Shown here piece by piece: positions 1 to 64,000 of a stretch of DNA of 64,000 nucleotides. Every line of letters begins with the position of its first letter. Position 1 is the first letter of the stretch. The DNA comes from Gemmatimonadaceae bacterium (GTDB lineage: Bacteria; Gemmatimonadota; Gemmatimonadetes; Gemmatimonadales; Gemmatimonadaceae). The DNA is taken from the NCBI GenBank assembly GCA_036496605.1, contig DASXKV010000001.1, positions 31,957 through 95,956 on the forward strand, read 5' to 3'. Made by a program: the position numbers and the translations under genes. Under the pieces are notes generated by a model. That model saw only the letters and a list, made by a program, of their open reading frames with translations, searched no databases and had not been told where the DNA came from.

Positions 1-44
1 GCCTGAGCCGACACTCGGTCTAGCAGCTCGATCCTAATGGCTAG

Positions 45-452
45 CACGTAGCCCGACCGCCAGCACTTCCACGCCCTAACGGCGTATACAGGAAGATGGC
101 GTCGCCGCTCTGGGAGGATCTTCGCGCGTTAGTCGCGGAAAACGTGAGCGCGCTCGCCGTGACGGTAATCATATGGACTTTCGGTGAGATGGTCTTCTCA
201 CCGGTCGGGGCAGCATACATCGCCGACATCGCGCCGGTCGATCTGCGCGGCCGTTATCAAGCGGCGTGGGCATTCACCTTCAGCCTGGGTCTGATGCCTG
301 CGCCGATCGGCGGGACACTCCTGTATAGCGTGGCCCCGAGCGTATTGTGGGTCATTTGCCTCGGCGTCTGCGTCGCCGCGGGCTCATGGCGGGCACCTGG
401 CTACTGGAGCGAGGGACGGGACGGAGCATCGTCACGTCGACCGGTTCGATAA
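45..452 (+). pseudogene. MFS transporter remnant (C-terminal part only)
   Basis: The open frame from 45, with its first ATG at 96, encodes hydrophobic helices typical of the C-terminal half of a major facilitator transporter. These include GEMVFSPVGAAYIADIAP followed by LRGRY, the usual inter-helix motif after TM8/9 in drug-type MFS proteins, and then two more membrane segments. Complete MFS proteins have about 400 residues; only about 85 recognisable residues remain. Stops at 21 and 42 close the frame upstream, and no N-terminal half is visible in other frames. The last 25 residues are polar and unlike a twelfth helix, so the 3' end also looks eroded. I read it as a decayed gene; an expressed small membrane protein is less likely. 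Confidence 0.6.
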
Positions 453-544
453 TCGGCGACGAACCGGCAGCGCCAGGGGATTAGCGCCGTGTGCTGACTT
501 CGTGTGGTCGATTCAGAGGATTTCCCGCGGAGGAAGGCAGTATT

Positions 545-576
545 GCTATTTTTCTAGCATATGCTAGTTTCGTAGC
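545..576. promoter_or_regulatory. Palindromic operator upstream of the BlaI-type repressor
   Basis: A perfect 14-bp palindrome, CTAGCATATGCTAG (554-567), is flanked at equal 5-nt spacing by GCTA (545-548) and TAGC (573-576), giving a 32-bp dyad. It ends 42 bp before the repressor start in an AT-richer stretch. BlaI/MecI-family repressors bind dyads as dimers and repress their own operon, so this is probably the autoregulatory operator. CTAG is normally avoided in GC-rich bacterial DNA, which makes the site stand out. Confidence 0.6.
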
Positions 577-618
577 AGCAGCCCCTCGGAAACCGCCTCA
601 GTTCACTGGAGCGAAGCG

Positions 619-1008
619 ATGGCGCACGACGACGGGATCCACCTCAGCCGGCGCGAGCGGCAGATCATGGATCATCTTTTTCGGGTCGGCCGCGCGACGT
701 CTGCCGACGTTCTCGCGGGAATGCCCGATCCGCCCAGCTATTCTGCCGTCCGTGCGATGTTGCGGACGCTCGAGGACAAGGGTCACGTTAGGCACGAGGA
801 GGAAGGGCGTGCCTACGTCTACCTCCCGACGACGCGCCGAGAGAGCGCCCGCCGTTCGGCGCTCACGCACCTGTTGCGCACCTTCTTTGACAATTCCGCG
901 GAGCAGGCGATGGCCGCGTTGCTCGACCTCAAGGGAACGAAGATGAGTGAAGCCGAGCTTGATCGCATGGTGGAGCGGATCGAGGTAGCCAAGAGGGAGG
1001 GGCGGTAG
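619..1008 (+). CDS. BlaI/MecI/CopY-family transcriptional repressor
   Basis: 129 residues, the usual family length. The N-terminal winged helix (about residues 8-75) carries the typical LSRRERQIMDHLF opening, a recognition helix around YSAVRAMLRTLEDKGHV and a wing. The C-terminal helices (about 80-125) form the dimer arm that is cleaved in classical BlaI. In the known systems the membrane protease BlaR1 senses a signal and inactivates BlaI; the M56 protease encoded 2 nt downstream is the expected partner. A strong dyad sits just upstream. The inducer is unknown: no beta-lactamase or copper gene is adjacent, so the symbol is left blank. Confidence 0.92.
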   Translation: MAHDDGIHLSRRERQIMDHLFRVGRATSADVLAGMPDPPSYSAVRAMLRTLEDKGHVRHEEEGRAYVYLPTTRRESARRSALTHLLRTFFDNSAEQAMAALLDLKGTKMSEAELDRMVERIEVAKREGR

Positions 1009-62156: not shown

Positions 62157-63602
62157 TTACTGGAGCCAGGCGCCTGTGAATCCGGCCCGCTGGAGCCCGC
62201 GTCTGATATAGGGACTCTGCCTCATCAGTCTCCAGATCAAGCCGGTCCGATAATTCTCGATCATGCCGACGATCGGGCCCTGGTCGATCCCGAGGTAGTC
62301 GGTGTCGAACCAGCCGACGCCGTTCACGACGCGACCCTGCTGCACGCGCACGCTCGCGTTGTCGTACGTGGGATTGAATGCGTCGAGAAATCCGTATTGG
62401 CCGAATAGCGGATCGCCATATTTGGCGCGCATTGCCTTGAGGGCCGGCACGACAATCTCTGGCGCGAAGGCGATCGAGCCGGCGGCGGCGGTCGGTGCGA
62501 TGGTGCCGTCGTCGCGAATATCGTTGGCGGCCGCGCCACGCGCGTTGTAGGTGTGGAATTGCCGCGTGACGCCGGCGACGACCATCGTCGTATCGAGAGG
62601 TCCATCCGAGGCCGTGAGTCCCCAAATGTCGGCGCCGTAGTCGCGAAACTTCGACGGATTGTCGATCGCATACGCGCGCTGCGACAGCGTCGCGCGACGC
62701 GAGTTCTCGAAGTAGTCGATATTTCGGGCGCGCATATACGCGTCCTGAATGCCGCGGAAGTCGATGAACAGTTGTGAATACTGGTGGCCAAAGAGCGGCG
62801 CGAAGTTGACGTGCGCCTGGCCGTAGAACGTGTTCCATTGGTACGTCGACGTCCACTGATTCCACGCCGTCGAATCGATCGGATGCGTCGGTGAGCCTAA
62901 CGCGAGGACATAGAGGAGCATTGCCTCGTTGAACCCGCGCCAATCGGCCGCGATAAAATTGGACTCCGGGTGCCACCCCATGCTGACGAGTGGTGCGTTA
63001 GGCGACGCCCACGTCCAGTCGACGCGCGAATAGATGGAATCGGCGAGGGCGCGAATGGCCGTCTCGTCGGAATCGCTGCCAGTGAAATATTCGCGACAAA
63101 CCAAGATACCGCCTAACAACAGAGCCGTGTCGATGGTGGAAAGCTCGACCTGTTGGAAGCGCAGACCGGTGTTCATGTCGAGAAAGTGATAGTAGAAGCC
63201 TTTGTAGCCGGTGACGCCGGTGGCTGCCGGTCCCTGCGGTGCTTGATAGAGGAAGGTGAGCGTTGTGCGGACGCGCGCGCGGGCGTCGGCGCGCGAGACG
63301 TAGCCGCGCTCGACGCCGATCGGGTATGCCGTTAGGCCGAACCCGATCGCCGCGACCGACGAGAAGGATTGCGTCGGCCAGCGATCGGGAATGAGTCCGT
63401 TCGTGGGGTTCGTGGTTTCCCAGAACCAACTGAAGGTTCGGTTCTCGAGCGTGTCGAGGAAGGGATCGGCGCGGAAGTCGGGCGCGGGGCCAGCAATCGC
63501 CGTCGTGCCCCGGCTATTGCAGCCGGGAAGGAGAGCGATCACGGCCAGGAGAGCGATGCAGCCGGCTCGCGCGCAGCTCGGCAGTGGCGAGGTTCCTGTC
63601 AC
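62157..63602 (-). CDS. Glucoamylase-like lipoprotein, GH144-type (endo-beta-1,2-glucanase family)
   Basis: About 481 residues from GTG 63602; the start is uncertain because the frame is open to 63692. Lipoprotein signal with lipobox LLPGC (near 24-28). The all-helical glycoamylase-type domain is recognised from ENRTFSWFWETTNPTNGLIPDRW, TGYKGFYYHFLDMNTG, LSTIDTALLLGG, GWHPESNFIAADWRGFNEA in pattern and the late GWFDTDYLGIDQGPIVGMIENY. Related GH144 enzymes cut beta-1,2-glucans. The acidic residues in these motifs are the likely catalytic or binding positions. It lies between the TonB receptor end and the ABC importer genes. Confidence 0.82.
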   Translation of the reverse strand: MTGTSPLPSCARAGCIALLAVIALLPGCNSRGTTAIAGPAPDFRADPFLDTLENRTFSWFWETTNPTNGLIPDRWPTQSFSSVAAIGFGLTAYPIGVERGYVSRADARARVRTTLTFLYQAPQGPAATGVTGYKGFYYHFLDMNTGLRFQQVELSTIDTALLLGGILVCREYFTGSDSDETAIRALADSIYSRVDWTWASPNAPLVSMGWHPESNFIAADWRGFNEAMLLYVLALGSPTHPIDSTAWNQWTSTYQWNTFYGQAHVNFAPLFGHQYSQLFIDFRGIQDAYMRARNIDYFENSRRATLSQRAYAIDNPSKFRDYGADIWGLTASDGPLDTTMVVAGVTRQFHTYNARGAAANDIRDDGTIAPTAAAGSIAFAPEIVVPALKAMRAKYGDPLFGQYGFLDAFNPTYDNASVRVQQGRVVNGVGWFDTDYLGIDQGPIVGMIENYRTGLIWRLMRQSPYIRRGLQRAGFTGAWLQ

Positions 63603-63672
63603 GCAACGGGGATTGAGGCCGGACCACTGCACGTGGTGCAGATGCTGCGCCAGCAGATACTGCCTAACGGCA

Positions 63673-63697
63673 GGGCGGTGGGTTGCGCCCACCGCCC
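63673..63697 (-). terminator. Strong hairpin between the TonB receptor and glucanase genes
   Basis: GGGCGGTGGG (63673-63682) and CCCACCGCCC (63688-63697) form a perfect 10-bp stem with a 5-nt loop, 11 nt after the receptor stop on the minus strand. There is no T-tract, so it may reduce read-through or protect the upstream transcript rather than terminate fully. Confidence 0.6.
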
Positions 63698-63708
63698 GAT
63701 CGTCGTTT

Positions 63709-64000
63709 CTACCAGTTCACCTCCAGGCCGAGCTGGTACCGCCGAGGGTCGTTGAGCGTGCAGTCCGCCGTACCAAACGCCGGATTGTTTTTCACGACGC
63801 CACCGGGGTTGATGAGAGGGGAACCCGTTTCGTAGCAACCGAGGTTCGCTCGGTTGAACACGTTGAACAGATCGAACGTGACGCCGTACGAGAGGCGCTG
63901 CTGTCCGAGGTTGGGGAAATCCTTTCGGAAGCGGACGTCGACATTCTGATACGGGAACGTTCCCGGGACAGTGAAGCCACCACGTACATATGGATTGAGG
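63709..64000 (-). CDS. TonB-dependent receptor, C-terminal end (partial)
   Basis: The minus frame from the window edge to the TAG at 63709-63711 gives 96 residues. The barrel-end pattern is clear: NVDVRFRKDFPNLG, RLSYGVTFDLFNVFNRANLG and the final YQLGLEVNW ending in an aromatic, as in outer-membrane barrels. The Cys pair (LGCYETG and TADCTLN) is common in the carboxypeptidase-regulatory/TonB receptors of this type. The 5' part lies beyond the window. It likely imports the glucan products into the periplasm. Confidence 0.88.
   Translation of the reverse strand, partial: LNPYVRGGFTVPGTFPYQNVDVRFRKDFPNLGQQRLSYGVTFDLFNVFNRANLGCYETGSPLINPGGVVKNNPAFGTADCTLNDPRRYQLGLEVNW

Follow-up and report, generated by a model that had tools for sequence, protein, structure and literature searches.

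The window analysed here is a 64,000-nucleotide stretch of a Gemmatimonadaceae bacterium (assembly GCA_036496605.1, contig DASXKV010000001.1, positions 31,957 to 95,956; G000:C1:31957-95956 in our labelling, with G000 being the own genome) and carries the octamer CGTTAGGC in 31 exact copies, 19 on the + strand and 12 on the - strand. This total confirms the hand count of about 31 in the first-pass annotation, and by z-score (22.5) CGTTAGGC ranks first among all 8-mers of the window. Across 100 dinucleotide shuffles 1.16 copies were expected (largest shuffle 6), and 1.70 under a third-order Markov model, so that the enrichment claimed earlier holds and the chance level of 2-3 copies given with it was, if anything, generous. 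On the + strand the copies lie at 786..793, 1484..1491, 2191..2198, 4179..4186, 7683..7690, 8741..8748, 10793..10800, 21086..21093, 21593..21600, 40296..40303, 41180..41187, 42833..42840, 45196..45203, 48151..48158, 49937..49944, 51717..51724, 59730..59737, 62996..63003 and 63330..63337, and on the - strand at 7038..7045, 10171..10178, 11175..11182, 14120..14127, 26495..26502, 40863..40870, 44665..44672, 51046..51053, 56671..56678, 60395..60402, 62895..62902 and 63662..63669; those at 7038 and 7683 fall within a comM gene. Twenty-eight of the 29 positions listed previously agree with these to within 1 base, the entry 10181 should read 10171, and the copies at 40863 and 44665 had been overlooked. 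The 7-mer CCTAACG occurs 39 times, giving 8 near copies of that kind where about 7 had been reported.

The excess extends to the whole genome (5,968,761 bases, 5.97 Mb, in 70 contigs), in which CGTTAGGC occurs 3411 times, 1661 forward and 1750 reverse, compared with 408 occurrences of the same word read backwards, our control for whole-genome word counts. Enrichment over a third-order background, the comparison on which the first-pass annotation had staked its claim, holds in 352 kb of this genome (the own sample hereafter; 184 copies seen vs 8.9 expected), the whole genome being compared with the reversed word only. In Gemmatirosa (G018), of the same family, the total is 4469 (2275/2194 by strand, with one assembly stretch counted twice), and a sample of 400 kb, composed of 20 stretches of 20 kb of which 14 (280 kb) are chromosomal, holds 228 copies vs 9.5 expected when recounted without the duplicate contig. 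The duplicate is contig C1 (L017; 20,952 bases), whose first 20 kb match the beginning of the chromosome contig (C2, L173) letter for letter over 19.5 kb; several Gemmatirosa counts below (frames, variants and pairs) include the duplicate L017/L018, and key counts were redone without it. Runs of N were removed before variants and enrichment were counted. Two Gemmatirosa megaplasmid contigs are equally dense in the word (12, 8, 14, 12, 15 and 15 copies per 20 kb).

The sparse region noted previously at 22-40 kb of the window does hold one copy only, at 26495, but its 13.8 kb copy-free gap is unremarkable (0.14 gaps of such size expected in the own sample), and it carries ordinary core genes encoding SMC, 3-deoxy-D-arabino-heptulosonate 7-phosphate (DAHP) synthase and an S41 protease. 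The comM gene (6433..8052, + strand) encodes a YifB/ComM-family ATPase by its domain matches (Mg_chelatase, ChlI and Mg_chelatase_C), with its nearest named relatives, at 50-65% identity, in Gemmatimonadaceae and other Gemmatimonadota assemblies; we agree with the earlier view that it offers weak support for competence. Separately, three repeat families (AGGGGCTAGGG, TCTACCCTCT and ACCAACCACC), with copies often 7 bases or multiples of 7 apart, were observed at 14626-14664, 43225-43295, 49500-49617, 18893-18909 and 54009-54039, mostly between called genes, and also on other contigs of this genome.

Frames, orientation and spacing of the word

Genes were called with a simple codon-based caller, which is crude (for example, it called the SMC gene at 36850-40806 as antisense frames), and shares of genic and intergenic copies are accordingly approximate. 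By these calls, 150 of the 184 own-sample copies lie in genes and 34 between them (0.50 vs 0.62 per kb), in line with the first description of the copies as mostly genic and in both orientations. The genic copies use four of the six possible states of frame and orientation (51, 35, 37 and 27 copies), and the two unused states contain an in-frame stop (CGT-TAG and GCC-TAA). Peptides encoded across the word differ, and positions along genes are flat by fifths (25, 31, 35, 25 and 34). That the word forces TTA, AGG or CTA codons is true of 113 of the 150 genic copies (51, 35 and 27), but the other 37 read CCT-AAC; TTA codons lie inside the word in 90 of 125 cases in Gemmatirosa gene calls and 51 of 188 in the own sample. 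Such a word could in principle arise from codon usage or from a peptide or gene family present many times over, and one frame, encoding A/S/T/P-Leu-Gly, is indeed commoner (51/150). A codon or peptide origin is nevertheless refuted by the four frames and both orientations, with intergenic copies and the near-expected frequency of most single-substitution neighbours speaking against it too, and we give it practically no credence. Because it occurs in both orientations, in genes and in gaps, and in all four stop-free frames, CGTTAGGC is a DNA-level signal.

Within own-sample genes the two orientations number 86 vs 64, and neighbouring copies throughout the sample share their orientation in 87 cases and oppose it in 84, with gaps near random (coefficient of variation 1.10). 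In the 14 chromosomal stretches of Gemmatirosa, copies divide 77 to 75 between the G-rich and the C-rich strand, local skews being tiny, and the presumed leading strand has 84 of 152 (p 0.22, assuming that base 1 is near the origin); no replication polarity was thus found on these 280 kb, though a weak bias may exist. Balanced strands and the lack of detected polarity therefore disfavour both Chi and the FtsK-orienting polar sequences (KOPS) and, together with the four frames and the threshold-like specificity described below, bear out the first-pass preference for a recognition word over a promoter or a strand-biased FtsK/Chi signal.

Chi sites are exact, short, asymmetric words, dispersed through the genome and oriented with replication. 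A Chi-like recombination hotspot, read at broken DNA by a RecBCD/AddAB-type enzyme and kept frequent in the core genome by selection, would agree with the length, exactness and density of CGTTAGGC, all of which are within the range of Chi sites. It would also agree with the absence of the word from one restriction island, the Gemmatirosa stretch L180 (G018:C2:2660001-2680000), which has 0 copies vs 11.4 expected, is the coldest of the 20 (p 1e-5, or 2e-4 after 20 looks) and carries genes for type I restriction-modification (ResIII/EcoEI_R_C, a specificity subunit and an N6 methylase) as well as for a PD-(D/E)XK nuclease. This word-free island also fits untagged foreign DNA, as a single post-hoc case. 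Besides the strand counts, the near-absence of the word from most genera and the contrast between two genomes of one genus, G022 and G243 (3754 copies vs 3), would be odd for a core repair function, and we consider a Chi-like role rather unlikely.

Exact word, tolerated variants and a preceding T

Most of the 24 single-substitution neighbours of CGTTAGGC are near expectation in the own sample and none exceeds 5.7-fold, the highest being CGTTAGGT (5.7-fold), CGTTATGC (4.8) and, at 3.2 each, CGTCAGGC and CGTAAGGC. Little information resides in the flanks: the position following the word is mostly A or G (0.24 bit), the base before it contributes 0.10 bit and two further positions 0.10-0.11 bit. 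The perfect word is enriched regardless of the preceding base (23.1-fold after T, 19.6-fold after others), whereas variants as a group are enriched only after T. Pooled over all 24, T-preceded variants number 192 vs 72.3 expected, and those preceded by A, C or G 182 vs 175.9. Individual cases are TCGTTAGGT (28 vs 1.7 expected, 16.7-fold; 4 vs 3.9 without the T), TCGTTATGC (23 vs 1.8, 12.6-fold; 6 vs 4.2 without it) and TCGTCAGGC (46 vs 6.4, 7.2-fold; 23 vs 14.9 without it). Across the whole genome TCGTTAGGT occurs 424 times (control 43), and the same variant after A, C or G, VCGTTAGGT, 157 times (control 150; Fisher p 9e-36). Of the coding copies of TCGTTATGC and TCGTCAGGC, 12/21 and 12/42 respectively occupy the frame that is barred to the perfect word because of its CGT-TAG stop.

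By sequence match, the window contains TCGTTAGGT at 11022..11030, 33128..33136, 52752..52760 and 59158..59166, all on the - strand; TCGTTATGC at 2846..2854, 32928..32936, 45498..45506 and 56506..56514 on the + strand and at 34857..34865 and 60190..60198 on the - strand; and TCGTCAGGC at 3107..3115, 17630..17638, 29946..29954 and 58549..58557 on the + strand and at 17915..17923 on the - strand.

Enrichment of the variants as a group only after T fits a putative protein that reads TCGTTAGGC above an affinity threshold in the own genus; an extra contact that offsets a mismatch is what a threshold-binding protein would select. Mutational decay was rejected as the main source of near-copies in this genus, because near-copies as a group need the preceding T and old copies should decay regardless of which base precedes them. 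In our view, sequence can hardly make a better case that CGTTAGGC is real, genome-wide and protein-like in its specificity.

Distribution, dialects and turnover among relatives

In a survey of 395 genomes drawn from the phylum, the own included, genomes with the word at 1.5 times the reversed control or more were classed as 'on' and tallied by eye. Only 24 of the 395 were on: 17 in the own family, six in a second family of the order (5/6 drawn members of genus g47, plus G174) and one in a third family (G041). G188 (30 vs 26 in the control) was left out of the tally and G029 adds one to the own family. Copy numbers in most other genomes range from a handful to some dozens (G054 has 181 and G144 172). 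The own family is sharply split, with 4469 copies in Gemmatirosa, 3754 in G022 and 2415 in G032 vs 17 in G023 (4,636,964 bases), and includes a sparser group of about 700 to 1100 copies each (G007, G013, G027, G030 and G035), of which the G030 sample is as enriched over expectation (69 vs 2.5 in 440 kb). Being of one genus, G022 (4.3 Mb) and G243 (3.8 Mb) offer a ready-made on/off contrast for tracing the gene responsible. On a DAHP-synthase tree (23 rows; 7/20 inner branches open), well-supported branches require at least four changes of the on label, and 206/500 shuffles of the labels need as few; the tree says that on and off genera appear scattered across it, and nothing further.

Pooled samples of off genomes contain the word twice, vs 0.7 expected, in 321 kb, and with G023 added their T-preceded variants number 37 vs 56.0 expected, with no T-rescue pattern. 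No other dispersed word of comparable excess was found in 29-40 kb of G003, G005, G008, G014, G017, G021 and G024 or in 200 kb of G023. Clustered repeats do occur in the off genomes G005, G008, G014 and G024, that of G005 (L115-L116) comprising ~30 copies with words like CTCAGGTCAA and CTTCAATGGA and being perhaps an array of clustered regularly interspaced short palindromic repeats (CRISPR). In the second family, G156 (L243-L252) bears a second word, GAGTGCCGAG/CTCGGCACTC, alongside CGTTAGGC (26 vs 0.8 expected in 200 kb).

Patchiness between related lineages is shared with the highly iterated palindrome HIP1 (GCGATCGC), a dispersed cyanobacterial octamer that is common in some lineages, rare in relatives and linked to methyltransferases (PMC4390886). 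By analogy, CGTTAGGC might owe its upkeep to DNA methylation or mismatch repair and play no part in uptake. HIP1, however, is tied in that source to palindromic methyltransferase sites and CGTTAGGC is no palindrome, and the way in which a T in front of the word makes up for mismatches, resembling an affinity threshold, indirectly disfavours such maintenance, which we judge unlikely. Similarly improbable is a binding site for some other genome-wide protein with a nucleoid, segregation or regulatory function: threshold-like specificity suggests merely some reader and would suit it, but copies do not cluster at gene starts, no polarity was found in the sampled chromosome, and the word is switched on and off patchily between genera.

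The genera that use the word have dialects, tolerating other variants per genus, and some of them lack the T rule of the own genus. An excess of TCGTTAGGT is also found in G001, G002, G029, G007, G013, G027/G114, G030/G175 and G035. It is nearly missing from G364 (1 copy, control 11), G368 (3, control 7), Gemmatirosa (8, control 2), G022 (4, control 8) and G032 (9, control 3); in the last three, VCGTTAGGT occurs 16 (control 12), 32 (83) and 30 (20) times respectively. In 400 kb, Gemmatirosa tolerates CGTTGGGC (50 vs 11.0 expected), TGTTAGGC (23 vs 4.1) and, weakly, CGTCAGGC (47 vs 20.8), with CGTTAGGT at 0 vs 6.4; the G022 and G364 samples likewise tolerate CGTTGGGC and TGTTAGGC.

Conservation of individual copies was followed by aligning the window with relatives' stretches located by a search with its first 20 kb, overlapping alignments being skipped. 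In congeners (79% identity), own copies are kept at 4/10 sites in G001 and 4/6 in G002, a pooled 8/16 compared with a baseline of 17-18% for 8-mers of the same composition (p 0.003, with sites overlapping). Outside the genus few are kept (1/3 in G022, 1/4 in G364, 0/2 in G029, 0/2 in G007, 0/4 in G013, 0/1 in G243 and 0/2 in G024), and copies therefore turn over between genera. Aligned copies of G022 and G243 (78% identity) are kept in 0/4 cases, one of them opposite a gap, too few to separate loss from absence.

Proposed DNA uptake, its machinery and known systems

The letters of CGTTAGGC are also those of the integron attC R' box, whose consensus we take to be identical to the word, and its copies could therefore be attC sites or remnants of them. 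The first 20 kb of contig C95 (L129) of G036, an off genome with 62 copies in all, holds 24 copies, 23 in the same orientation and mostly 400-1300 bases apart, with attC-like stems before the word in the 12 inspected, and is likely a cassette array; near an own-genome integrase of the integron type (L318), too, some copies are attC-like sites that end in CGTTAGGC. Unlike attC sites, which are clustered, in one orientation and between cassettes, own-genome copies are dispersed and orientation-balanced and lie within ordinary genes in four frames. Of 39 genomes picked from the on and off groups, 23 have integrase matches above the curated cut-off, with both groups represented. We regard an integron origin as very improbable; the identity of letters may be chance and leaves the dispersed intragenic copies unexplained.

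The best explanation of CGTTAGGC, to which we assign a probability of roughly 60%, is that it acts as a DNA uptake sequence whose reader is an uptake receptor, one of the possibilities raised in the first-pass annotation; Chi, KOPS, HIP1-like and integron readings fit worse. On this view a receptor associated with the pilus, most probably one of the minor type IV pilins, would bind free DNA at TCGTTAGGC-like sites whose affinity exceeds a threshold, and import would proceed through ComEC. DNA of close kin would then be taken up in preference to other DNA, and copies would build up as word-bearing fragments are preferentially taken up and recombined. In its favour we count the scale, strand balance and exactness of the word, the four frames, the share of TTA codons inside it, the T-dependent variants and their use of the barred frame, the dialects, the conservation in congeners and the word-free restriction island. 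The own genome also encodes competence machinery, namely ComEC, N-methylated pilins and ComM.

Several observations weigh against uptake. Among the same 39 genomes, ComEC is encoded in 35, G000 included, and GspH-like pilins in 28, each in on and off genomes alike; the machinery therefore does not track the word, nor does the integron integrase, the third family compared. N-methylated pilins, surveyed in 10 genomes, occur in all 10, on and off, with 17 matches in G000. The minor pilins of this genome cluster at about G000:C51:144900-149000, and a family search among them returned weak matches and no ComP assignment, so that the receptor was not found by this route: GspH/FimT-like, PilV and ComGD matches fell below curated cut-offs, and only the general prepilin N-terminus exceeded its own. 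Compared with solved structures, a G022 pilin matched pilin N-termini only, and an own pilin gave weak matches, mostly to beta-phosphoglucomutase, that we take as chance. The T rule has exceptions in the own sample, where GGTTAGGC and TGTTAGGC without T reach 2.4-fold and 2.7-fold (7 copies each), and it is not uniform among relatives: G029, G013 and G035 show a 2- to 4-fold excess of the variant also without T, and four second-family genomes are mixed (TCGTTAGGT 22-39, controls 5-15; VCGTTAGGT 37-110, controls 35-85). Close pairs (<=60 bases) number 0 vs 5.0 expected in the own sample, and inverted pairs of the terminator type are thus missing there; Gemmatirosa has 15 vs 7.6 expected, of which 5 are inverted and 10 are not, a tandem repeat and L017 duplicates being among them (G022 and G364 together have 2 vs 4.2). 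The own stretch L003 has 3 copies in 20 kb yet encodes the core proteins DnaK and Lon. The conservation in congeners derives from 16 sites that overlap between the two genomes (G001 alone, p 0.08). Finally, no report of transformation or uptake sequences in Gemmatimonadota was recognised in the open-licence literature, judged by titles and the starts of abstracts; matches to the octamer itself were, by title, primers or unrelated.

If uptake is nonetheless the function, the word may represent an independent third invention of uptake sequences, in Gemmatimonadota, with a 9-base word, an affinity threshold, at least two dialects, on/off states between related genera and a mating-type-like barrier to gene exchange, a wider claim that we advance tentatively and would put a little short of an even bet. 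As attC boxes of integrons in the same order have the very letters of CGTTAGGC, cassettes might then arrive ready-tagged for uptake. Uptake words are known from Neisseriaceae and Pasteurellaceae, and how they originate is disputed. In a separate lineage whose related genera are variously on, weak or off, the gain, drift and loss of such words could be followed directly. Such a lineage would also open a receptor search in a new group and offer a possible genetic tool. Gemmatimonadota are common in soil, and Gemmatirosa kalamazoonensis has been cultivated, making it a named test species.

Among known dispersed words, Chi shares with CGTTAGGC the exact, short and asymmetric form and differs in its replication polarity, none having been found for CGTTAGGC in the chromosomal sample. 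The DNA uptake sequence (DUS) of Neisseriaceae (GCCGTCTGAA) is read by the receptor ComP (PMC12616744) and resembles CGTTAGGC in its thousands of dispersed, short, non-palindromic copies and in its lineage dialects, of which eight are described, the extra 5' bases of the 12-mer AT-DUS improving function (PMC3630211), much as a T before CGTTAGGC accompanies tolerated mismatches. Unlike DUS, CGTTAGGC lacks CTG on either strand, belongs to another phylum, forms no inverted pairs in the own sample and is known here from sequence alone. The uptake signal sequence (USS; AAGTGCGGT), for which ComN/PpdA is the proposed receptor (PMC12616744), is similar to it in core length, in its presence on both strands and in a favoured orientation inside reading frames (PMC2346458; here 86 vs 64), but CGTTAGGC lacks the AAGTGCGGT core and its flanks carry little beyond one base on each side. 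Uptake words occur in terminators of Neisseriaceae and Pasteurellaceae (PMC13020248), whereas inverted pairs of that type are not seen in the own sample and account for 5/15 pairs in Gemmatirosa. Our best reading of these likenesses and differences is a predicted uptake word unlike either DUS or USS.

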